A stretch of DNA of 64,000 bases, from assembly GCA_025163595.1 (NCBI GenBank), contig CP104100.1, forward strand, positions 3,224,001 to 3,288,000, read 5' to 3'. The notes beneath the pieces are model-generated. The model ran no database searches, was not told the origin of the DNA, and saw only the letters and a program-made list of their open reading frames with translations. The translations under genes were made by a program, and so were the position numbers. Source of the stretch: Phaeobacter sp. G2. GTDB lineage: Bacteria; Pseudomonadota; Alphaproteobacteria; Rhodobacterales; Rhodobacteraceae. Shown piece after piece: positions 1 to 43,580 of this stretch (positions are counted from its first letter, which is position 1; every line of letters starts with the position of its first letter).

Positions 1-294
1 GAGAGCCATATCGTAGACAGCCGCAACCTCCAGAAAAAACACTTCCATCCGGGAGACCATCTGGCGCGTTTCAGCTGCGGAAACGGTCTCTAGCACTGCA
101 ACGCAGGCCCGATGATGCAGGCTGGCCAGTTCCGAGAACGTCAACCGTTTCCCAAGCGCTGATCGCGAAAAAAGATGTGCGGAATCAAGAACATCCTCAT
201 CCTGACTGACCAGATACTTCCTCAGGGCTCCGCTGTAAAAGGCGCCGAAGTCGCTGATTTCCGTCTCAGTTATTTCATCTGCGCTATTGATCAT
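1..294 (-). CDS. RsbT-partner protein, RsbU-type N-terminal domain (partial)
   Basis: The gene starts at 294 and is open to the left edge, so only the first 98 codons are visible. They read as a helical domain with the pattern FYSGALRKYL, LFSRSALGKRLT and ELASLHHRA, which matches the N-terminal domain of RsbU-type phosphatases that docks the kinase RsbT. Its ATG overlaps the rsbX stop as ATGA, so translation is probably coupled to the stressosome genes. The missing C-terminus could be a PP2C phosphatase, a histidine kinase or a diguanylate cyclase; the visible part does not decide this. Gram-negative stressosome loci such as those of Vibrio have a histidine kinase with an RsbU-like N-terminus at this place. 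The domain call is fairly secure and the output is unknown. Confidence 0.6.
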   Translation of the reverse strand, partial: MINSADEITETEISDFGAFYSGALRKYLVSQDEDVLDSAHLFSRSALGKRLTFSELASLHHRACVAVLETVSAAETRQMVSRMEVFFLEVAAVYDMAL

Positions 295-905
295 GGCGCA
301 GCACCGATTTTCACGGCCAGTGCGATCGCATCGTCATTCTGGCGGCCGTGTTGCAACACTGTATTGTGCGCCAGATCTGCTGCACTTTCATAGGCGTCCA
401 ATTGGCTGCGATAGCTGGCAGATATGCCATCACTGACCAGCACGATCGTGGCAGGCGGCTGCAAAGCCAGTCTCTGGGGCAGCAGCGATCCAAAGGCCAA
501 CCCCAGTGTGCCGCCGCACTGGATAACCGAGTCTGTCTGAGACCTGCCCTGAAGCAGGACACCATCAATATCGCCCATGGCAGCCCAGTCCAGTGTCAGA
601 GTTTCAAGGGAAATCAAAGCAACACCAAGAGCCGCCCCGCGAGTTCCTTTCAAGGCTTGATGCGACAGCGCAAAGATCTGGCGCAGGTCCGGGTGCTCCG
701 CTTCGCTCAACCGTCTGAGACACTGATTGGCGGCCTGCGCTGCTGCTGTTCCGCTACCCGTGCCATCGACCACTGCCGCGACAAGTACGGGGCCAATAAA
801 ACGCAGCAAATAGCCATCCCCGCAGGCTGACCCTGAATGCTTCGAGCGGTGCTCGATTGCCCAGCTGATACTGTAACCTTGCTTATCCAGCACACCTTGT
901 TTCAT
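291..905 (-). CDS. rsbX: RsbX-type PP2C serine/threonine phosphatase
   Basis: This is a small PP2C/SpoIIE-fold phosphatase of about 204 residues with no other domain, as in RsbX, which resets the stressosome by dephosphorylating RsbS and RsbR. Metal-binding motifs are visible in order: VVDGTGSG near the N-terminus, GDIDG in the middle, then LVSDGIS and the final NDDAIAL. I place the start at 905 because that ATG overlaps the rsbT stop codon as ATGA; an in-frame ATG twelve bases upstream (917) is the alternative. The 3' end overlaps the next gene the same way. Position directly after rsbT supports RsbX rather than RsbU. The family is near certain and the precise role is inferred from context. 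Confidence 0.8.
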   Translation of the reverse strand: MKQGVLDKQGYSISWAIEHRSKHSGSACGDGYLLRFIGPVLVAAVVDGTGSGTAAAQAANQCLRRLSEAEHPDLRQIFALSHQALKGTRGAALGVALISLETLTLDWAAMGDIDGVLLQGRSQTDSVIQCGGTLGLAFGSLLPQRLALQPPATIVLVSDGISASYRSQLDAYESAADLAHNTVLQHGRQNDDAIALAVKIGAAP

Positions 906-1324
906 GGCTTGCACCACATGGCGGCGACCACGAGCACGCCTTCACCTGGCTGGGAAGAAATGTCAAATTCGTCCATGATACGCTTGGTTCCCGGCAGGCC
1001 GAGCCCCAGGCTGTTCCCGGTAGAAAACCCGTCCTGCATCGCTTTGGAAAGGTCTTTGATGCCCGGGCCTTGATCACTGGCCCGGACCAGAATACCAGCC
1101 CCTTTTGTGTCCTGGATCACTGCAATCTGGATTTCTCCTTTGCCCGCATAATTGACGATATTGCGGGCCAGTTCGGAAATCGCAGTCGCCACCAGTGCTT
1201 GGTCTGGCCGACTGAACCCAAGAGATTCCGCAATGTTGCGCCCCAACTTCCGAGCCGCAACAATATCACTGTCCGTGGTGATCCGACGAAGCTGAATGTC
1301 GGGAACTCCGCCAGCCATTTTCAT
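902..1324 (-). CDS. rsbT: RsbT-type serine kinase / switch protein
   Basis: A 140-residue GHKL ATPase of the anti-sigma-factor kinase family. The N box is ELARNIVNYA, the G1 box DQGPGI and the G2 box GLGLPG. RsbT phosphorylates RsbS and RsbR in the stressosome and, once released, activates a partner carrying an RsbU-type N-terminal domain; such a partner is the last gene of this operon. The start overlaps the rsbS stop by ATGA; a second ATG two codons later is also possible. RsbW-type anti-sigma kinases have the same fold, but the setting between rsbS and rsbX and the absence of a sigma factor gene nearby favour RsbT. Confidence 0.85.
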   Translation of the reverse strand: MKMAGGVPDIQLRRITTDSDIVAARKLGRNIAESLGFSRPDQALVATAISELARNIVNYAGKGEIQIAVIQDTKGAGILVRASDQGPGIKDLSKAMQDGFSTGNSLGLGLPGTKRIMDEFDISSQPGEGVLVVAAMWCKP

Positions 1325-1680
1325 GCGCCTGACCGATCCAATAGCGCCATGCCGCGGTCAAGATCCAGCGCGGTCTCAACATCCTTCAGAGTCAGCCCCA
1401 GAAGAACCAGAGCCATGGCGACTTCAGGCTGAATGCCGACAAGGACCAGCTTTGCGCCCCGCAGGTACACGCCGCCTGCAATCTCGGATAAGGTGCGGCT
1501 GCTGAAACTGTCCAGGACATCCACAGCACTGACATCAATGATGACGCCAGTCACGCCTTTTGTCACCACCATATCCAGCAGCCTGCTCTGCAGATCCAGA
1601 ATTTCCTGATCTGACAGATCTTCCTGAATAGACGCAATCAAACGCCGGTTCTGTTGCAGGATGGGAACGCGTACAGCCAT
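1321..1680 (-). CDS. rsbS: RsbS-type STAS scaffold protein
   Basis: A single STAS domain of 119 residues, the size of RsbS. The motif VLDSFSSRTL contains Ser58, which lines up with the RsbS serine phosphorylated by RsbT in Bacillus subtilis (Ser59). The following segment LVGIQPEVAMALVLLGL is the conserved second half of the STAS fold. RsbS and RsbR co-assemble into the stressosome core that sequesters RsbT. The gene begins 5 bases after the rsbR stop and overlaps rsbT by ATGA, so the three are almost certainly co-translated. SpoIIAA-type anti-anti-sigma factors look similar, but the neighbours and the DSF motif support RsbS. Confidence 0.85.
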   Translation of the reverse strand: MAVRVPILQQNRRLIASIQEDLSDQEILDLQSRLLDMVVTKGVTGVIIDVSAVDVLDSFSSRTLSEIAGGVYLRGAKLVLVGIQPEVAMALVLLGLTLKDVETALDLDRGMALLDRSGA

Positions 1681-1685
1681 CGGGA

Positions 1686-2606
1686 TCAGGTACCGATCAA
1701 CTTTTCAGCGATCTTAATTCCCTGCTGCAAATCCCCGGCAGTATTAAGCTGCTGGCCCGATACACCGATCTTGACCAGGGCCTGGGCCACCTCTGCAGAA
1801 ATGCCAGTCAGAACAGAGGCCGCCCCCATCAGGCGCGCGGCGCTCATGGATTGGATCAGATGGTTGGCCACAGCGCTGTCCACTCCGGCCACACCGGTGA
1901 TATCCAAGACAACGACCTGGGCGCGATGTTCGCGGATGCCTTCAAGAAGCTCCACGGTCAGCGACCGGGCCCGGTGGCTGTCAAGCGTTCCCACGACAGG
2001 TATCAGCAAGAGGCCCTCGCGCAATTTCAGCACCGGAGTCGGCAGTTCGCTCAGTTCGCGCTCACGATTCTGGATCGTCTCCTCGCGGGTTTCCACGTAG
2101 GTTTCCAGCGCCAGGGACATGTCGAAATGGGATATCTTCAACAGCGCCAGCATCAACCGGAAGGCCTCTTCTGGTTTTTCGGCAAGCTTGTCCAGTATGA
2201 CGTGCCCAAGGCGGTGCATATAAAAGGCGTATGCCCCGATATAGAGCGTGGGTGTTACCCCAGCCTGTTCATGGATGCGGCCAATCAAACGACGGTTCTC
2301 GATATAGGCATCATCAATATCGGCTGATACAAATTCCTCAAAATACCGGACTTGCGCGCGTTTCACCCGATTGATGTGTTCCTCATCCTGAAAATGTTTT
2401 GAGGCCTGATCAAAAGATAGAATATGGTCGTAAAACGCTTCGATGATTTCTCCGGCCATTTGCTCTGCAATACCGGACAGCCGCCGCCTTTCCTCTTGGT
2501 CTGATGCGGTAATATCAAACCATGCCAGCGCATCGGCCAACGCATTAGCATGTGTCGTGGTATCTGCCAGATTCCCGGTGATAGACGAGGAAACAACATC
2601 AGACAT
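1686..2606 (-). CDS. rsbR: RsbR-type stressosome sensor: globin domain + STAS domain
   Basis: 306 residues. Positions about 20-180 form a globin-coupled-sensor domain; the segment IGRIHEQAGVTPTLYIGAY carries His112 where such sensors have the haem-ligating proximal histidine. Positions about 192-304 are a STAS domain. The phosphorylatable threonine of the DITGV motif is present (Thr237), but the second RsbR site of B. subtilis (Thr in PEIAQTIV) is replaced by Ala276 in AEVAQALV. In the stressosome, RsbR rings present the sensor domain outward and hold RsbT until stress. Retention of the proximal histidine suggests oxygen or another haem ligand as signal, as for the haem-containing RsbR of Vibrio; this is inference. 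It is the first gene of the operon. Confidence 0.85.
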   Translation of the reverse strand: MSDVVSSSITGNLADTTTHANALADALAWFDITASDQEERRRLSGIAEQMAGEIIEAFYDHILSFDQASKHFQDEEHINRVKRAQVRYFEEFVSADIDDAYIENRRLIGRIHEQAGVTPTLYIGAYAFYMHRLGHVILDKLAEKPEEAFRLMLALLKISHFDMSLALETYVETREETIQNRERELSELPTPVLKLREGLLLIPVVGTLDSHRARSLTVELLEGIREHRAQVVVLDITGVAGVDSAVANHLIQSMSAARLMGAASVLTGISAEVAQALVKIGVSGQQLNTAGDLQQGIKIAEKLIGT

Positions 2607-3043
2607 AAAACGCTCCTGAGTTTCTGTTTGGCTTCCCCTGACACTAAATTGGTTTGGTTAATAAACTTGCATAAAATCCTGCGGGGGAATTATTTTACGC
2701 TGCCCTAACGGCTCGTCCGCATTAAATACAGGACCCAATCACCCTGCACGCAGGCAAGCCATTCCGCCAAATCTCAAAAACTGGCAACGCTTGGCAATAC
2801 GCTATCATCGCTCTTCAAAATTATGCACCTCTTCCATCTCGCGCGGCTCCTGCTATTTATTGGTTATAGGTTCTGACCTAAATAATTCCATGAATGCGGC
2901 ATTCAAATACATACACTCCCATTAGGTGTTAAAGCTGCTCGAAAGACAAGTCATAACAAATCAATTTATTAATACAATCATTTAGAAATCTTCCCGTGTT
3001 TAGTGTTAGTTTCAAATGTACCCGTAAAGAGTGGAGTTGTTTT
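2607..3043. promoter_or_regulatory. Divergent AT-rich intergenic region of rsbR and a response regulator
   Basis: About 440 bases without a gene, clearly richer in A+T than the flanks, between rsbR (minus) and the response regulator (plus). Two small dyads stand out: TAGGT-TCTG-ACCTA at 2867-2880 and GAATG-CGG-CATTC at 2892-2904. Either could be an operator. I cannot assign a promoter with confidence. Confidence 0.35.
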
Positions 3044-3736
3044 ATGCAGTTAACACATATCGACCATCACAAGCAGGGCTTGCTCGCAGCGCAGACCGCT
3101 TTGGAAATACTCGTTTTTGATGATGATGACTTTGACCTGACACGTCTTCAGCGCCTGTTGCAAAAGGTCGACAAGAAGGTGGAAGTTCACGCCTGTTCTT
3201 CAGTCGAGCAGATGAATGACGTTTTGGATCATCAGGTCATTGACCTATGCCTACTGGATTTGAGAATGGGGGATCTCGACGGGTGCGAAGTCATGCAGTC
3301 TCTGCGCAGAAGGCCTGACAGCGCAGAACTGCCTGTCGTCATGGTGTCTGGCATGCAGGATACAGAATCTGTTGTCAGAACCATCAAGGCTGGCTGCACC
3401 GACTTTCTGGAAAAAGACCACCTGACCGCAGATAAACTGCGCCAAACCATCTTCCAGGCGCTGACCTCTTCGATGCCGGATCCGGACCTGACTTACAGAT
3501 TGCATGAAGCGTCAGAGGCCGTTGTAAAGGGGATTGCCAAAGGCTGCATTGCAGAACTCCAGCCCCGGCTTCGCCAGATTTATCGCCAGGTCAGCTTTAT
3601 TCGGAATTGCCATAACATGGGTCTTTTGCCAGATCCGCAGGCGCTTGATAAAATCGAGCAAAACTGCCTCGCAGTTTGGCGGTTCTTTGATGAGGTAGAA
3701 GCCTACGCCGATGGGTTCAGCAAACCGGTTCACTAG
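3044..3736 (+). CDS. Response regulator with C-terminal helical domain
   Basis: 230 residues. A CheY-like receiver occupies about residues 20-145, with the acidic cluster VFDDDDFD, the phosphoacceptor Asp72 in LLDLRMGDLDG and the conserved lysine in FLEKDHL. The remaining ~85 residues (LHEASEAVVKGIAKGCIAEL and onward) are helical, with no recognised DNA-binding or enzymatic motif. An ATG 16 codons upstream (2996) is in frame, but a GTGGAG ribosome binding site and loss of conservation before residue 1 favour 3044. Likely partners are the soluble histidine kinase at 4030-4824 and possibly the stressosome output. What the C-terminal part binds is unknown. Confidence 0.75.
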   Translation: MQLTHIDHHKQGLLAAQTALEILVFDDDDFDLTRLQRLLQKVDKKVEVHACSSVEQMNDVLDHQVIDLCLLDLRMGDLDGCEVMQSLRRRPDSAELPVVMVSGMQDTESVVRTIKAGCTDFLEKDHLTADKLRQTIFQALTSSMPDPDLTYRLHEASEAVVKGIAKGCIAELQPRLRQIYRQVSFIRNCHNMGLLPDPQALDKIEQNCLAVWRFFDEVEAYADGFSKPVH

Positions 3737-3874
3737 GGTCGGAACCCGATAATCCTGCGTCGGCAGCCGAATTTTATAAAATTTCAGTGGTTTGGGGCCT
3801 GCCGTGAATAGTCGCTCTATGTGCAAGCCACCCAAGACGCTGAAATGAAGTGAAGTAGAGTGACCACCGATCAC

Positions 3875-3912
3875 CCCAAAGGGGGGCCGACAAGACATCG
3901 GCCCCCTTTGGC
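3875..3912. terminator. Strong hairpin between convergent genes
   Basis: A long GC-rich inverted repeat: CCAAAGGGGG...CCGA, loop CAAGACA, TCGG...CCCCCTTTGG. It lies between the response regulator (plus) and the histidine kinase (minus), which converge here. Neither strand has a long T run directly after it, so termination efficiency is uncertain. Confidence 0.55.
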
Positions 3913-4029
3913 GTGGCAGGTTTAACGAATTTTGCTGCTGCCCGCGTCACATCTGGTTGAAATATAACAACTACAGCTGAACAAACGCGTCTTGTCAGAG
4001 ACCCGATCTGACAAACTGACGGTGCAGGA

Positions 4030-4824
4030 TTAATGGGTCCTGACCCTAGACGGTGATTGCATCTGTGTTTCATCTGATACAGGCAGGGCCAAGCACAATG
4101 ACGCGCCCTGCATGTCTCTTGAAGGTCGGGCAACCCATGCGCGCCCGCCGCAGTGCAGGGCGATCTTGTCCAAGATGGCCAATCCCATGCCAACACCTTT
4201 GTCATCGCTGGCGGCATGCAGCGAGACCATAGGTTTGAAAACTTCTGTCCAATGGCGTTCGGGGATTCCGGGGCCATTGTCCCTGACTTTCAACACCCAG
4301 AAATCCCCAAGTCCGGTCTCTGGGCTGCCCTGTTCAATAGACCCGGTTATGGCAATTCTTGTGTCAGGGGACCCATGTATCAACGCATTGCTGATCAGCA
4401 CGTCGACAGCCATCTCCAGATCAGGCATGGAAATCTGCACCGCGCCTTTTTGCAGTTTGCAGCGCAGCCGCGCTGTGTCTGGCAATGTGCGGCGCGTCAG
4501 AACCTTTCTGACTGCCTGCCCACCATCCATCACCTCCGCTGGACTGCGACCTACGCGGGAATGCAACAGCAATCCATCGATCATTTTGTTAAGCCGCTGC
4601 GTATGATTTTGCATCAAATGCAGGCAATCTTGGACTGAATCGGGTAACTCCAGCCCGGCTTCTGCCAAGTCTTCCTGTATCCAAGTAGGCAAATCCGACA
4701 GCGCCCGCGTTGACCCGCGCAGATCATGTGACAGGCGGTAGATGATCTCATCCGCTGTCTGCTGTTGCGAACCAGGCTGCAGCAGACCCGCTTCTGCGTC
4801 ATTCCGTGCCCCTTCTGGCGTCAT
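4030..4824 (-). CDS. Soluble sensor histidine kinase
   Basis: 264 residues without membrane segments. The first 25 residues have no sensor domain. The dimerisation and phosphotransfer helix reads YRLSHDLRGSTRAL with His33 as the probable phosphorylated histidine. The HATPase domain follows with an N box (ISNALIHGS), G1 box DNGPGIP and G2 box GVGMGLAI. It is flanked by two response regulators, one converging (3044) and one divergent (5200), so it probably phosphorylates one or both. With no sensory domain it may be driven by a protein partner, and the stressosome operon next door is a candidate source. That link is inference from position only. Confidence 0.8.
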   Translation of the reverse strand: MTPEGARNDAEAGLLQPGSQQQTADEIIYRLSHDLRGSTRALSDLPTWIQEDLAEAGLELPDSVQDCLHLMQNHTQRLNKMIDGLLLHSRVGRSPAEVMDGGQAVRKVLTRRTLPDTARLRCKLQKGAVQISMPDLEMAVDVLISNALIHGSPDTRIAITGSIEQGSPETGLGDFWVLKVRDNGPGIPERHWTEVFKPMVSLHAASDDKGVGMGLAILDKIALHCGGRAWVARPSRDMQGASLCLALPVSDETQMQSPSRVRTH

Positions 4825-5086
4825 CGCAACAGGCCTCCTGGTATGTTTCTGGCGACCGGCGTAGCGCTGGTCGCCTTAGGCGTTTTAGCCGCTAAACATA
4901 GGGTGCCGCCCCACCGATAAGAATGCGTTAACACCCCTTCATTTTGCGATAAATTATTGAAAACTTTATAGTTCAAACTCTACAGTCATACATTCAAAAT
5001 TCTGCAATTAACAGACAGGCAACCTTTCATGTCTAATGTATTAAGGAAGCAAAGGGGCAGTTCCGGCAAACAGCCCATGGCTAATA

Positions 5087-5203
5087 ATGATACGGGTGGC
5101 TGATTTGAAGCATGGGGCAAATGGTAACATCGGTGGGACACTCACCCAGTCCTTGGGGCCAAAGCCAGGCATGCTGCTGCTCGGCGAGGCTCGTGCGCAA
5201 TGA
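5087..5203 (+). CDS. Small ORF coupled to the downstream response regulator
   Basis: A 38-codon frame beginning MIRVADLKHGANG and ending LLLGEARAQ. Its TGA overlaps the ATG of the response regulator at 5200 as ATGA, the usual sign of translational coupling. The frame is open upstream to about 5042 without another ATG. The ribosome binding site is poor. It could be a short coupling peptide, the remnant of a larger gene, or chance. I recognise no family. Confidence 0.25.
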   Translation: MIRVADLKHGANGNIGGTLTQSLGPKPGMLLLGEARAQ

Positions 5204-5646
5204 AACAGCCGCAAGAGATAACACTGCTCATCGTTGACGACGATGACATCGGCGTCGCTTCGGTACAGCGGGCCATGCGCAAACTTGGCATGAGCAACCC
5301 TGTGCGCGTCGGCCGGAACGGGCTGGAAGCGCTGGAACAATTGCAGGTGTTGAACGATACCCCAGGCCGCAATCCCTGCCTTGTTCTGTTGGATTTGAAC
5401 ATGCCCCGGATGAACGGCCTAGAATTTCTTGCTGAACTGCGCAGCAGGCCGGAATTGGCGCATACCATCGTTTTTGTCCTGACGACCTCCGAGGATCCGG
5501 CTGATGTTGCCAACTCCAACCGCTACAACGTGGCCGGATATGTAGTGAAAAAGAATGCCTATCAAAGCGTCTTGGCGACCGTGGAAATGCTACAGCACTA
5601 TCTGCGCATTGCTTGTCCTGGTGTGATTGCGCCATCCGCAATGTAG
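5200..5646 (+). CDS. Single-domain response regulator (Rcp1-like CheY)
   Basis: 148 residues consisting only of a receiver domain. Acidic pocket IVDDDDIG, phosphoacceptor Asp65 in LLDLNMPRMNG, the Thr-containing strand FVLTTSEDPADV and the lysine in VVKKNAY are all present. The DPADV/NRYNVAGYVVK pattern resembles the Rcp1 group that works with phytochrome or other soluble histidine kinases. A GAGG ribosome binding site is 10 bases before the ATG. It has no output domain, so it should act by protein contact or as a phosphate shuttle. The divergent histidine kinase at 4030-4824 is the obvious donor. Confidence 0.85.
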   Translation: MKQPQEITLLIVDDDDIGVASVQRAMRKLGMSNPVRVGRNGLEALEQLQVLNDTPGRNPCLVLLDLNMPRMNGLEFLAELRSRPELAHTIVFVLTTSEDPADVANSNRYNVAGYVVKKNAYQSVLATVEMLQHYLRIACPGVIAPSAM

Positions 5647-10687: not shown

Positions 10688-11251
10688 CTAGCCGGGGATC
10701 TCGTTGCGCTGCAGGTAGTCATGCACCGCGCGGCTGCGCTGAGTGATTTTTTTCAGAAGTGTGGCGTGGTCCAGCCGCAGGGCCAGTTTTTCTTCCATAT
10801 TTGCCCGTTTATTGATGAACTCCTCAAAAACATCCCCGGCATCCATCAGCCGATGGGCGCTGCGGTCATAGACCTCCCGGTATTGGCTCCATTGCGCAGC
10901 AGAAACCTCGCCTTTGGCCATCAGCTCTTCTGCGGCTTCCAGGATTTGCTCCAATGCTGCAAGCGTTCTTTCGATCCCCGCTTCAGGGCGACACTCGATT
11001 GCAGTCAGGTTCTCCAGCTCACGAAACAGTGCAGCTTGAATTGTCTCGATACTGTCGGGGGAAAACTCATCCAGATAGGCGTCAATCTTGCGCATATGCG
11101 CCTGATCAGAGAGTTTATCGTCGCGCAACGCATGCAGATAATACTCTACCGCGGAGAGCTTGGTATTTAAGGCCTGGATCTGTTTTTGCGCTTGGGTATG
11201 GGCCGCGTCATACCGTTTCTTGGCCAACCGCCATTCTCGCACTAAGGACAT
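10688..11251 (-). CDS. Hypothetical coiled-coil protein
   Basis: 187 residues with no membrane segment or signal peptide. It is almost entirely helical by eye: the first 40 residues (REWRLAKKRYDAAHTQAQKQ) and residues 90-120 look like coiled coil. I recognise no family. A strong AAAGGAG ribosome binding site precedes the ATG, so the gene is likely real. It converges on the VOC gene with 24 bases between stops and lies upstream of nothing on its own strand. Confidence 0.6.
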   Translation of the reverse strand: MSLVREWRLAKKRYDAAHTQAQKQIQALNTKLSAVEYYLHALRDDKLSDQAHMRKIDAYLDEFSPDSIETIQAALFRELENLTAIECRPEAGIERTLAALEQILEAAEELMAKGEVSAAQWSQYREVYDRSAHRLMDAGDVFEEFINKRANMEEKLALRLDHATLLKKITQRSRAVHDYLQRNEIPG

Positions 11252-11369
11252 GGAATACCACTCCTTTTATTTGCCCCAGCCCCCACCAGAACACAGGCCC
11301 CAGACTAATGCCTATCCTGACTTTGTAAAGCCACCTGTCAGACCGGCCCCTTCCGCCCCCTGCGCAATC

Positions 11370-11402
11370 GCAAAAGGGGCCCCAAACCGGAGCCCCTTTG
11401 CA
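11370..11402 (-). terminator. Intrinsic terminator of the TRAP operon
   Basis: On the minus strand GCAAAGGGGCTCC, a short loop and GGGGCCCCTTTTGC form a stem just after the dctM stop at 11429. The T run is only four bases but is in the right place for the end of the dctPQM operon. Confidence 0.6.
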
Positions 11403-11428
11403 ATCGTTTAGTTCTAGGATCGTCCTGA

Positions 11429-13783
11429 TCAGTTGGGGATCAGCGCCGGAATGATGGTCACAATCGAGGGGAAGAACCACAGCAGCGCCAGCCCTGCCAC
11501 CTGGATCAATACGAAGGGCAGAACCCCACGATAGATATGTCCGGTGGTCACCTCTTTTGGTGCGACCCCACGCAGATAGAACAGCGCAAAGCCAAAAGGT
11601 GGTGTCAGGAAGGAGGTCTGCAGGTTCACCGCAACCATGATCGTCACCCATTTGGGATCAAAGGAACCGCCATAGATGACCGGCCCAACAATCGGGATCA
11701 CGATGTAGATGATCTCGAGGAAGTCGAGCACAAAGCCCAGGAAGAACAGCACCAACATCACGATCAGGAAGACCGTCATCTCATTGTCAAAGCTCTTCAG
11801 GAACTGCTGGATGTAGTGTTCACCACCAAAGGAAATCACCACCAGATTGAGCAGCTGCGAGCCGATCAGGATGGTAAAGACCATGGAGGTAACCTTGGCT
11901 GTTTCCCGCACAATGGGTGTCAGAACAGCGCCTTTGTACAGAACCCAGCAGCCATAAAGCAGGCCAAACAGAGCAAACAGATAGGCACCATAGGCAACAC
12001 CAAAGGCGATCCAGCTTTCGACGCTGACATCAGACTGGTTGATCCGCAGATCAAAGTTCACCCCGATCAGGATCGCAATCATCACGGCAAAGGTGGCCCA
12101 GATGATGATCTTGCCCGACTTGCCTTGGTCCTGCAGCTTGCGGTAGGCCGCCAGCATGATTGCACCACCGGCGCCAAGCGCCGCAGCGGGCGTTGGGTTG
12201 GTAATACCACCAAGGATCGACCCAAGCACGGCAACAATCAGAACCAGCGGTGGGAAAACCACCCGGATCAGATCATTGCGCGCACAGCGGGCGGCAGCTT
12301 CGCGCGCACCATACAGCGCCAACAGCGCAGGCAGAGCCAACAACAGCACCGTGACACCGGGCGTTGTCGTAGGTGCAATCAACAGCACATCGACGAGCAA
12401 AACCAGCAACAGGCCAATGGCCCCCAGGATCAGCGGCTTGGTGTCCCGCGACGGAGCAACCCCACGACCAATGGCCAGAACCAGCCCCAGCATGATCACC
12501 AGGATGGTAACGCCTGTGCCAATCGGAGCAGCTGCCGCGATCTTGTCGACACCTGCCTGAGCAAACTCTTCCTCAGTCAGCTTGGTTGCCTGTGCAACGC
12601 CGCCAGCCGCATCAATCGCAGTCTGTTCCGCAACTGCGGCATCCCAGGCCTCTTGACCGTGCAGGTCAATCATTGCCGCTTGGCACTGAGGTCCGACATT
12701 GGTCCGCAAAGAGGCGGTTTGACCTGCGTCAGAAAATGCCGAGACCGTAATGTTCTGCGAACCGATCACCCCAAAGGAGCCCAACAGCATGGCACCGCCA
12801 ATGATGGCAGCAGGTGCACCAAGGAACCACAGCAGCGCTTCGTTGCGCGTCACCGGCTCATTGGAGCTGGCCTCCAGCGCAACAGCTGGCGCTTTTTCCG
12901 GGTTCAGCATCGCATAGCCAAAGGCATAAAGCGCATAGAGCAGCGCCAGCATGATCCCCGGCAGCAAAGCCGCCTGGAACAATGTGCCCACAGAGACAAC
13001 CGCCGGTTCACCCAGATAGGTCAAAGCGTCGGAACAGCCTGCCTCCATCGCCCGGCTTTCCTGTGCGGTGGAATACAGATCCCCCGCCAGGGTCCCCAGA
13101 AGAACGATCACGATCGAGGGTGGAATGATTTGCCCCAGGGTACCAGAGGCCGCGATCACACCAGTTGCCAGTTCAGGCGAGTAGTTGTTGCGCAACATGG
13201 TCGGCAGAGCCAGCAGGCCCATGGTCACCACGGTGGCACCAACGATCCCGGTGGAGGCCGCCAGGAAGGCACCAACCACAACGATAGACACCGCAAGACC
13301 ACCCGGCAGCGGGCCAAAGACCCGCGCCATTGTTGTCAGCAGGTCATTGGCAATTTTCGACCGTTCCAGGGTGATCCCCATCAGAACGAACATCAAAACT
13401 GCCAGCAGGGTTTCAATCGATGCCCCGGCCAGAACCCGCTCGTTCATCCGGTTCACAATGAACGAGACATTGCGATCCATCGCATATTCCCAACCCTGTA
13501 CAAACACAGGCTCGGCAATGCGCGGCAGTTCCGGATATCGGAAGATTGAAATTGCATCGGGTTTCACCCCGCTATCCACAAGGCTGCGATAGACCTCGGA
13601 GGAGGTATCAATGGCCTGGTGGATCAGCAGTCCGGCACTGTCCAGTGCCGCGATGATCCCAAAGGAGATGATACCGGCACCACCGATGGCAAAAGCCACC
13701 GGGAAACCGGAGAGGATGCCTCCAAAAAGGCAAAGAAATACGATGAGCAGGCCGAGTTCGACGCCATCAAGACCGAATAGCAT
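11429..13783 (-). CDS. dctM: TRAP transporter large permease (DctM-like, enlarged)
   Basis: 784 residues, nearly twice the usual ~430 of DctM. The N-terminus (LLIVFLCLFGGILSGFPVAFA) and the block GATVVTMGLLALPTMLRNNY with IIPPSIVIVLLG are typical DctM. Two insertions are visible: about residues 50-115 (YRSLVDSGVKPDAISIF) and a larger one, about 300-590, which adds several membrane segments and a soluble loop (NITVSAFSDAGQ). DctM sequence resumes with DFLEIIYIVIPIVGPVIYG. With DctP and DctQ it forms a sodium-driven importer of organic acids in the inner membrane. Large versions occur in TRAP systems for 2-oxoacids or lactate. It begins 17 bases after dctQ. Confidence 0.85.
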   Translation of the reverse strand: MLFGLDGVELGLLIVFLCLFGGILSGFPVAFAIGGAGIISFGIIAALDSAGLLIHQAIDTSSEVYRSLVDSGVKPDAISIFRYPELPRIAEPVFVQGWEYAMDRNVSFIVNRMNERVLAGASIETLLAVLMFVLMGITLERSKIANDLLTTMARVFGPLPGGLAVSIVVVGAFLAASTGIVGATVVTMGLLALPTMLRNNYSPELATGVIAASGTLGQIIPPSIVIVLLGTLAGDLYSTAQESRAMEAGCSDALTYLGEPAVVSVGTLFQAALLPGIMLALLYALYAFGYAMLNPEKAPAVALEASSNEPVTRNEALLWFLGAPAAIIGGAMLLGSFGVIGSQNITVSAFSDAGQTASLRTNVGPQCQAAMIDLHGQEAWDAAVAEQTAIDAAGGVAQATKLTEEEFAQAGVDKIAAAAPIGTGVTILVIMLGLVLAIGRGVAPSRDTKPLILGAIGLLLVLLVDVLLIAPTTTPGVTVLLLALPALLALYGAREAAARCARNDLIRVVFPPLVLIVAVLGSILGGITNPTPAAALGAGGAIMLAAYRKLQDQGKSGKIIIWATFAVMIAILIGVNFDLRINQSDVSVESWIAFGVAYGAYLFALFGLLYGCWVLYKGAVLTPIVRETAKVTSMVFTILIGSQLLNLVVISFGGEHYIQQFLKSFDNEMTVFLIVMLVLFFLGFVLDFLEIIYIVIPIVGPVIYGGSFDPKWVTIMVAVNLQTSFLTPPFGFALFYLRGVAPKEVTTGHIYRGVLPFVLIQVAGLALLWFFPSIVTIIPALIPN

Positions 13784-42679: not shown

Positions 42680-42756
42680 TGGCGCGGTTGACGGGGCTCG
42701 AACCCGCGACCCCCGGCGTGACAGGCCGGTACTCTAACCAGCTGAGCTACAACCGC
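42680..42756 (-). tRNA. tRNA-Asp (GTC), copy 1
   Basis: A 77-base cloverleaf with encoded CCA. The acceptor stem is GCGGTTG/CAACCGC, the D-arm region is TAGCTCAGCTGG, and the anticodon stem CCGGC/GCCGG encloses the loop CTGTCAC, giving anticodon GTC. The T arm contains GGTTCGAGCCC. It is identical to copies 2 and 3. Confidence 0.97.
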
Positions 42757-42802
42757 GCATCTATACCTTTTCAGGCACCCCAAGAGGGGCAAAGTGAAGA
42801 AG

Positions 42803-42879
42803 TGGCGCGGTTGACGGGGCTCGAACCCGCGACCCCCGGCGTGACAGGCCGGTACTCTAACCAGCTGAGCTACAACCGC
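42803..42879 (-). tRNA. tRNA-Asp (GTC), copy 2
   Basis: Identical to copy 1 over all 77 bases, including the CCA end, with 46 bases between them. Flanking sequences differ, so only the tRNA itself is duplicated. Confidence 0.97.
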
Positions 42880-42972
42880 GCATTTTCTTCATAGTGGCCT
42901 TAACCACCACCCTCATCCGAGGAGGCCCCATCCGGAGCGGGATTTGATATGTCCAAATCAGACAGGCAGCAG

Positions 42973-43049
42973 TGGCGCGGTTGACGGGGCTCGAACCCGC
43001 GACCCCCGGCGTGACAGGCCGGTACTCTAACCAGCTGAGCTACAACCGC
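42973..43049 (-). tRNA. tRNA-Asp (GTC), copy 3
   Basis: Third identical 77-base copy, 93 bases upstream of copy 2 in the transcription direction. The three copies and the tRNA-Val further upstream lie on one strand and may be one transcript. Confidence 0.97.
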
Positions 43050-43504
43050 GTGCTGCCCATCCAGCATCGCTGCTGAATGTTGGGCTGTAATATTCCCAGC
43101 GCTCGGGGATCGTCAAGCGGTGTTTTGGTATTTTCGCTGCTTTGGTCGAAAAAAATGCCAAAAACAATGTAACTATTTGATTTTCATCATTTCAAATAGG
43201 GCGCCCCGGCCGAAAAGGCATCCACCAAATCCGGCGCCCACCTGTGGCAGCCCTGCCCTGCCAGCGTCGCGCGCATTTCACAGCCTACCTGCAGCAGCAA
43301 AGCGGCCAAGGATGTGCAGCCCTCTGGGAGAAACACAAAAGGAAGGGCCAAAGCCCCCCACGATGCAAGGTTTGACGTTAACCTTGTGCCGCAACAGCGA
43401 CTCACTGCCCGCCTGGAGAGCGACAACATACGGCCCCGCTATTTACCACAAGACACCGCCCCGAAGGGTGGGGATATTTTGTTCATTTCTTGGGGGGGGG
43501 GGTA
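43050..43504. other. Spacer between tRNA-Val and tRNA-Asp genes
   Basis: About 455 bases with no convincing gene. It ends in a hairpin-like CCCC-GAAGGGT-GGGG followed by ATATTTT (43459-43480) and an uninterrupted run of 11 G at 43492-43502. Open frames here have no ribosome binding site or family resemblance. Confidence 0.4.

Positions 43505-43580
<76 letters not shown>

Follow-up and report, generated by a model that had tools for sequence, protein, structure and literature searches.

The closest described counterparts of the system analysed here are the globin-type stressosomes, for which HisKA/REC phosphorelays have been reported among the downstream modules, Ruegeria included, and for which the RsbT-docking domain RsbU_N has been reported in some alpha-, beta- and gammaproteobacteria (PMC9237108). 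Both points are restated in PMC12143880, and a two-component output of the Vibrio stressosome is described in PMC10014275. Two established relays, SdrG-PhyT-PhyR (PMC5898713) and MrrA-PhyK-PhyR (PMC5964349), connect sensor kinases to an end regulator by way of a single receiver and a kinase-derived phosphotransferase. The present analysis concerns a stressosome operon of Phaeobacter sp. G2 (genome G000, 4.96 Mb) with the gene order rsbR-rsbS-rsbT-rsbX, hereafter RSTX, located at the left end of a 64,000-nucleotide stretch of contig CP104100.1 (C1:3224001-3288000), hereafter the window, together with the two-component genes on both sides of it. Domains were assigned with Pfam profiles at their curated cut-offs, and structural matches were obtained from the PDB by sequence and with Foldseek by model.

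The gene that follows rsbX runs off the window, and the sequence left of position 1 reveals that it encodes a histidine kinase with the domains RsbU_N (residues 20-97), HisKA (168-231) and HATPase_c (279-386). It is followed by the gene for a single-domain receiver, whose start, taken by eye as an ATG, gives a 4-base overlap with the kinase stop. The next large open reading frame (ORF) to the left (L002:9071-9973) lies on the opposite strand and is of the LysR type by eye. A first-pass annotation of the window had recognized an RsbU-type docking domain in the truncated gene and had predicted that the output would differ from the Bacillus one and lie immediately beyond the window edge; the completed gene bears out both statements. 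The RsbU_N domain scores 36.0 bits against a Pfam cut-off of 25.5 and is the only one in the genome. A profile search that could have placed the N-terminus outside the RsbU_N family placed it within, since the profile built from 20 N-termini matched four entries for the N-terminal domain of B. subtilis RsbU (from 2j70, 9.6e-10, to 1w53, 2e-8). The predicted structure of residues 1-150 (predicted local distance difference test score, pLDDT, 93.9) consists of four helices, the last continuous over residues 73-149, and a Foldseek search with this model ranked RsbU 1w53 first. The results indicate that the N-terminus of the kinase is, by its sequence, a member of the RsbU_N family and that the predicted output of the stressosome is a histidine kinase with a stand-alone receiver. 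The description of this output as unknown in kind was not sustained, as HisKA/REC outputs of globin-type stressosomes, including that of Ruegeria, were already published (PMC9237108). The distance from the VYDMA motif to the phosphorylated histidine was 84 residues in all 33 kinase relatives chosen from 120 listed of 1816, and 119 consecutive alignment columns were free of gaps in the same 33, a constancy that fits the coiled-linker model of PMC12143880.

The complete RSTX set named in the first-pass annotation, on the minus strand from 2606 to 291, is in place and Pfam agrees with each assignment; the haem-type globin of RsbR and a second two-component set at 2996-5646 come in addition to what that annotation named. 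The genes overlap by 4 bases (rsbT/rsbS), 16 bases (rsbX/rsbT) and 4 bases (rsbX and the kinase gene). The sensor portion of RsbR is a Protoglobin domain (Pfam, 2.9e-38) followed by STAS, and the top PDB match by sequence is RsbR of V. vulnificus (7o0i, 4.5e-44). Alignment by eye with this protein pairs the histidine of the GRIH/GEIH motif and the tyrosine of the FYD motif, which we take to be the haem-binding residues. This role agrees with that described for Vibrio RsbR (PMC4976288), and RsbR, having a protoglobin domain with the haem histidine and distal tyrosine, is a globin-coupled sensor of the Vibrio type that is predicted to bind haem. The top PDB match of RsbS, a STAS protein by Pfam, is RsbS 6jhk (2e-25), and the serine of the DSF motif aligns with the phosphorylatable serine of RsbS structures. 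RsbT matched HATPase_c_2/HATPase_c in Pfam and is encoded beside rsbS, as expected of the switch kinase; it had no PDB match by sequence at 1e-3. The nearest NCBIfam model was anti-sigma F kinase, a weak match (1e-11) far under the cut-off, and among the 120 best listed relatives source annotations call several RsbT and others 'anti-sigma regulatory factor'. RsbX is a SpoIIE-type PP2C by Pfam, with PDB matches to SpoIIE-type 3zt9 (5.3e-12) and to RsbX 3w40 (2.7e-9). The genome contains, besides the RsbV relative RbaV discussed below, only two other STAS matches, both in long proteins (562 and 604 residues), and so gives no sign of a second RsbR. The sensor-STAS protein RsbR, RsbS and RsbT together constitute the gene set of a stressosome (RsbRST) and are predicted to form the large RsbR:RsbS:RsbT particle. 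None of 36 loose matches to an FNR-type site falls in the rsbR-wREC1 gap (2607-2995), and a promoter and terminator scan around the operon gave numbers near those of shuffled sequence.

Table 1. Genes of the stressosome operon, its output and the neighbouring two-component cassette. Coordinates are those of the window unless prefixed C1.
Feature	Coordinates	Strand or position	Evidence
rsbR, protoglobin sensor + STAS, 306 aa	1686..2606	-	Pfam, PDB match
rsbS, STAS, 119 aa	1321..1680	-	Pfam, PDB match
rsbT, switch kinase, 140 aa	902..1324	-	Pfam, listed relatives
rsbX, PP2C feedback phosphatase, 208 aa	291..917	-	Pfam, PDB match
RsbU_N (first 98 residues) of 391-aa histidine kinase	1..294, continuing to C1:3223119	-	Pfam, profile, model
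Single-domain receiver, 131 aa from ATG picked by eye	C1:3222727-3223122	after kinase	Pfam
wREC1, receiver + ~90-residue helical extension, divergent from rsbR	2996..3736	+	Pfam, model
wHK2, 264-aa histidine kinase	4030..4824	-	Pfam
wREC2, single-domain receiver, 148 aa	5200..5646	+	Pfam

The distribution of the operon was examined in 35 named stressosome loci, 17 of them assigned to Rhodobacteraceae from their titles and known taxonomy, and in 295 genomes of the family. The order RSTX-HK-REC, where HK is the RsbU_N histidine kinase and REC the receiver of the operon, was found in 14 of the 17 loci. The exceptions are L068, with a partial RsbX match and neither HK nor REC in the flank covered; L074 of Poseidonocella, in which the gene after rsbX (11031-12149) has RsbU_N and HATPase_c with no HisKA match and no adjoining receiver; and L075 of Mangrovicoccus algicola (11028-12020), with RsbU_N under the cut-off, no kinase match and no receiver. 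RsbU_N was found in five of the 295 genomes (four above the cut-off), and RsbT at 59% identity or more in at least four; seven further genomes, of 11 with RsbT matches, have RsbT-like proteins at 35-43% identity that were not counted as stressosomes. The genome counts for RsbT, and those for wREC1 and rbaY below, are lower bounds, as only some candidates were scored (for example 9 of 39). Of 12 genomes of the genus, two have the RsbU_N kinase, and these two belong to the species of Phaeobacter sp. G2 itself. Outside Rhodobacteraceae, six of eight scanned proteins encoded after RSTX have RsbU_N above the cut-off, five of these carrying kinase domains with PAS or GAF, and the remaining two of the eight are kinases without RsbU_N. 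Leisingera has two distinct stressosome types, with RsbR 44-45% (L067, L071, L073) versus 66% (L078) identical to that of Phaeobacter sp. G2, which hints at horizontal transfer. Loci of Trinickia and Paraburkholderia (L081, L082, L085, L090-L093) contain a second RsbT-like gene, 45-50% identical to the RsbT described here and convergent with the gene after rsbX; two proteins scanned from that position are RsbU_N-PAS-HisKA_3 kinases.

The core of the proposed mechanism, in which an oxygen-sensing stressosome acts on the RsbU_N kinase and through it on the receiver, is assigned a probability of about 0.8. In V. brasiliensis, phosphorylation by RsbT is approximately 3.5-fold faster with unliganded Fe(II) RsbR than with the Fe(II)-O2 form (PMC4976288), a difference from which low oxygen should release RsbT here. 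By analogy with work on Vibrio and Bacillus, the haem state of RsbR would set the activity of RsbT, which would phosphorylate RsbR and RsbS and depart from the core, with RsbX resetting the core. Freed RsbT would dock on the kinase at its RsbU_N dimer and stiffen the continuous helix leading to HisKA. Phosphorylation of His177 of the kinase, and then of Asp60 of the receiver (numbered by eye), would rise or fall as a consequence. Several observations weigh against this core. The best Foldseek match to the model of kinase residues 1-150 had E = 0.12, with nothing under 0.001, and Tyr28 of RsbU, which contacts RsbT, is replaced by Asp in the kinase. RsbT of V. vulnificus is reported to have shown no binding to the downstream protein (PMC9237108). 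Finally, the kinase is decayed in L074 and L075 although RSTX appears intact, so that RSTX may serve other uses there.

Lacking an output domain, the receiver must work either through contact or through a relay; candidate relay partners are wHK2 and wREC1, which are encoded together with wREC2 on the other side of rsbR. The kinase core of wHK2 begins at residue 26, which leaves no room for a sensor domain. The extension of wREC1 is modelled as a helical hairpin (mean pLDDT 71.2, 6 sequences), and Foldseek with the wREC1 model placed the receiver part alone. A HisKA-like identity for the extension was considered and rejected, as profile alignments to the two kinase families gave probabilities of 3.1% and 1.9%, versus 98% for the control of wHK2 against HK. 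Of 19 stressosome loci (the 17 named loci, with that of Phaeobacter sp. G2 entered as L063, plus L024 and L026), four have a wREC1-type gene in the flank covered, and three of these have wHK2 as well. In Mangrovicoccus sp. HB161399 (L069) the row RSTX-HK-REC-wHK2 is followed 0.9 kb further, on the opposite strand, by a relative of wREC1. In genome G246 (L026:9121-12563) HK, REC, wHK2 and wREC1 lie in one row, the last three with open frames. This locus is decayed, with a frame-broken kinase and, by eye, a scrap resembling the end of rsbX beside an apparent transposase end, and no RsbT was found in G246. In Poseidonocella (L074) a relative of wREC1 lies at a distance of 3.1 kb from the kinase, and there is no wHK2. 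The flanks total 273 kb, for which the lower-bound density predicts 0.012 wREC1 genes and a density of two genes per genome predicts 0.13; the corresponding probabilities of four or more linkages are 9e-10 and 1.2e-5. When the Phaeobacter sp. G2 locus, which prompted the test, is dropped and L069 and L074 are merged, two linkages are left, with a probability of ~0.008 for the expectation of 0.13.

The cassette also recurs away from stressosomes. Relatives of wREC1 gave at least 54 matches in at least 40 of the 295 genomes; a protein-database search with wREC1 returned three relatives only, a limit of that search given the 54 genome matches. Among 23 stretches, out of the 54 matches, that have no adjoining stressosome, a short wHK2-type kinase was found in 13 and another kinase with a single receiver in 11, seven of the 23 having both. 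Four of 12 genomes of the genus have wREC1 matches, namely the same species twice, G297 (1e-62) and G301 (weak, 1.5e-15). G297, which has no stressosome kinase, encodes relatives of wREC1 (40%), wHK2 (33%) and wREC2 (42%) beside a 651-residue HAMP kinase. The set in G301 is looser and lacks a wHK2-type kinase. G250 encodes a PAS kinase and a receiver that are similar to the stressosome pair (39% and 38%) beside wHK2 and a wREC1-like protein, on a different contig from its stressosome. This gene neighbourhood suggests a recurring kinase cassette with exchangeable inputs, of which the stressosome may be one and HAMP and PAS kinases others. By analogy with SdrG-PhyT and MrrA-PhyK, the receiver could hand phosphate to the sensorless wHK2, acting as phosphotransferase, and from there to wREC1, a step to which we give slightly less than an even chance.

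Two observations weigh against this cassette step. A comparison of receiver helix 1, covering 14 of 15 stressosome receivers (one was missed by the pattern), did not favour wREC1 as the partner, with mean scores of 1.4 against wREC1 (24 sequences) and 3.8 against wREC2 (13 sequences). Moreover, 15 of the 19 loci have neither a wREC1-type gene nor wHK2 in the flank covered, which equally favours an arrangement in which the stressosome drives its own kinase and receiver only, the receiver binds an unlinked target (motility, biofilm or an enzyme), and wREC1, wHK2 and wREC2 are independent. Such an arrangement is consistent with the wide occurrence of wREC1 and wHK2 without a stressosome and with contact-acting single-domain regulators in Rhodobacterales, of which Osp, reported to inhibit CckA (PMC9430884), is an example. 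It accounts poorly for linkage in three to four lineages, in excess of the chance figures, and for the order HK-REC-wHK2 on one strand in two of the linked lineages; we consider it a tentative alternative, clearly below even odds yet deserving real weight.

Other routes lead to a partner switch encoded elsewhere in the genome. The first-pass annotation had stated that no sigB, rsbV or rsbW gene lies nearby, which is correct for the ORFs around the operon and does not extend to the genome, where RsbV- and RsbW-like genes (relatives of rbaV and rbaW) are found at C1:324 kb and, at C1:151 kb, a REC-PP2C gene (a relative of rbaY) with an adjoining histidine phosphotransfer (HPt) gene (L027:8274-10040, C1 ~151-153 kb). 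An HPt relative adjoins rbaY in all 30 loci examined (L132-L161), an arrangement that points to a phosphorelay upstream of RbaY; the sensor kinases of RbaY are left unidentified in the account of PMC3999984. The receiver might on these grounds pass phosphate to this HPt and so to RbaY, which would dephosphorylate RbaV and act on RbaW. The rbaVWY genes are, however, unlinked to the stressosome; rbaY is present in at least 46 of 61 family genomes, far beyond stressosomes, and so cannot depend on them; and helix 1 of RbaY scores -9.7 against the stressosome receivers, a weak comparison. We regard this route as unlikely. A combination in which the gas-sensing stressosome replaces the HAMP and PAS kinases as input to the cassette and the signal re-enters RbaY-RbaV-RbaW via HPt, giving a chain from partner switch to phosphorelay to partner switch, appears decidedly unlikely. 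That RsbT or RsbX acts directly on RbaV or RbaW, for a sigma-factor output as in Bacillus, is highly improbable: RsbV- and RsbW-like proteins are encoded, but the sole RsbU_N of the genome is fused to a kinase rather than to a phosphatase, and RbaY, the one further SpoIIE-type phosphatase detected, has REC in its place.

The proposed path from stressosome through RsbU_N kinase to receiver offers a small marine-bacterial system, within reach of work on two or three purified proteins, for testing the idea that RsbT drives a histidine kinase by stiffening a helix. If the link to the cassette is true, sensors of the cytoplasm and of the membrane have been exchanged on a shared set of downstream kinases inside a single genus, and genes can be named for an output, that of Gram-negative stressosomes, about which little is known. 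Elsewhere in the window, at 42680-43580, there are three consecutive tRNA-Asp genes and one tRNA-Val gene.

Compared with B. subtilis RsbRST-RsbU-RsbV-RsbW-SigB, the locus shares RsbR, RsbS, RsbT, RsbX and the RsbU_N docking domain; the B. subtilis system differs in its non-haem globin RsbR, in RsbU being a phosphatase and in a sigma-factor output within the same operon, and no RsbU phosphatase with RsbV, RsbW and SigB was found in the operon described here. The RbaVWY partner switch of R. capsulatus, as described in PMC3999984, has no stressosome part, and its relatives in Phaeobacter sp. G2 are unlinked to the operon. Pak-SdrG-PhyT-PhyR and MrrA-PhyK-PhyR resemble the wider locus in combining a sensor kinase, a single-domain receiver and a kinase-derived candidate phosphotransferase (PMC5898713, PMC5964349), and differ in that their kinases are of the HWE/HisKA_2 type and the relays end in PhyR-NepR. 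wREC1 is not PhyR by Pfam, and since NepR gave no match in the genome, while a Caulobacter control was detected, a PhyR-NepR-EcfG system was not recognized and the NepR pathway was ruled out as output. The stressosome of V. vulnificus and V. brasiliensis is similar in RsbR, alignable over 280 residues including the haem histidine, in RSTX and in its two-component output, and differs in that no RsbU_N was detected in VvD1 and the output is tied to cyclic-di-GMP, according to PMC9237108 and PMC10014275. Published globin RSTX modules, for example that of Ruegeria, share the globin RsbR, the RSTX order and an output of kinase and receiver, and some of their downstream proteins have RsbU_N (PMC9237108). 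The text on these modules, compared as text rather than gene by gene, makes no mention of wREC1 or wHK2 neighbours, and among the open-access titles listed none pointed to work on a roseobacter stressosome or on the wREC1/wHK2 cassette, so that the tie between the stressosome and the neighbouring second kinase set looks new. Overall, in our judgement the operon alone follows a known type, and it is the association with the cassette that sets it apart.

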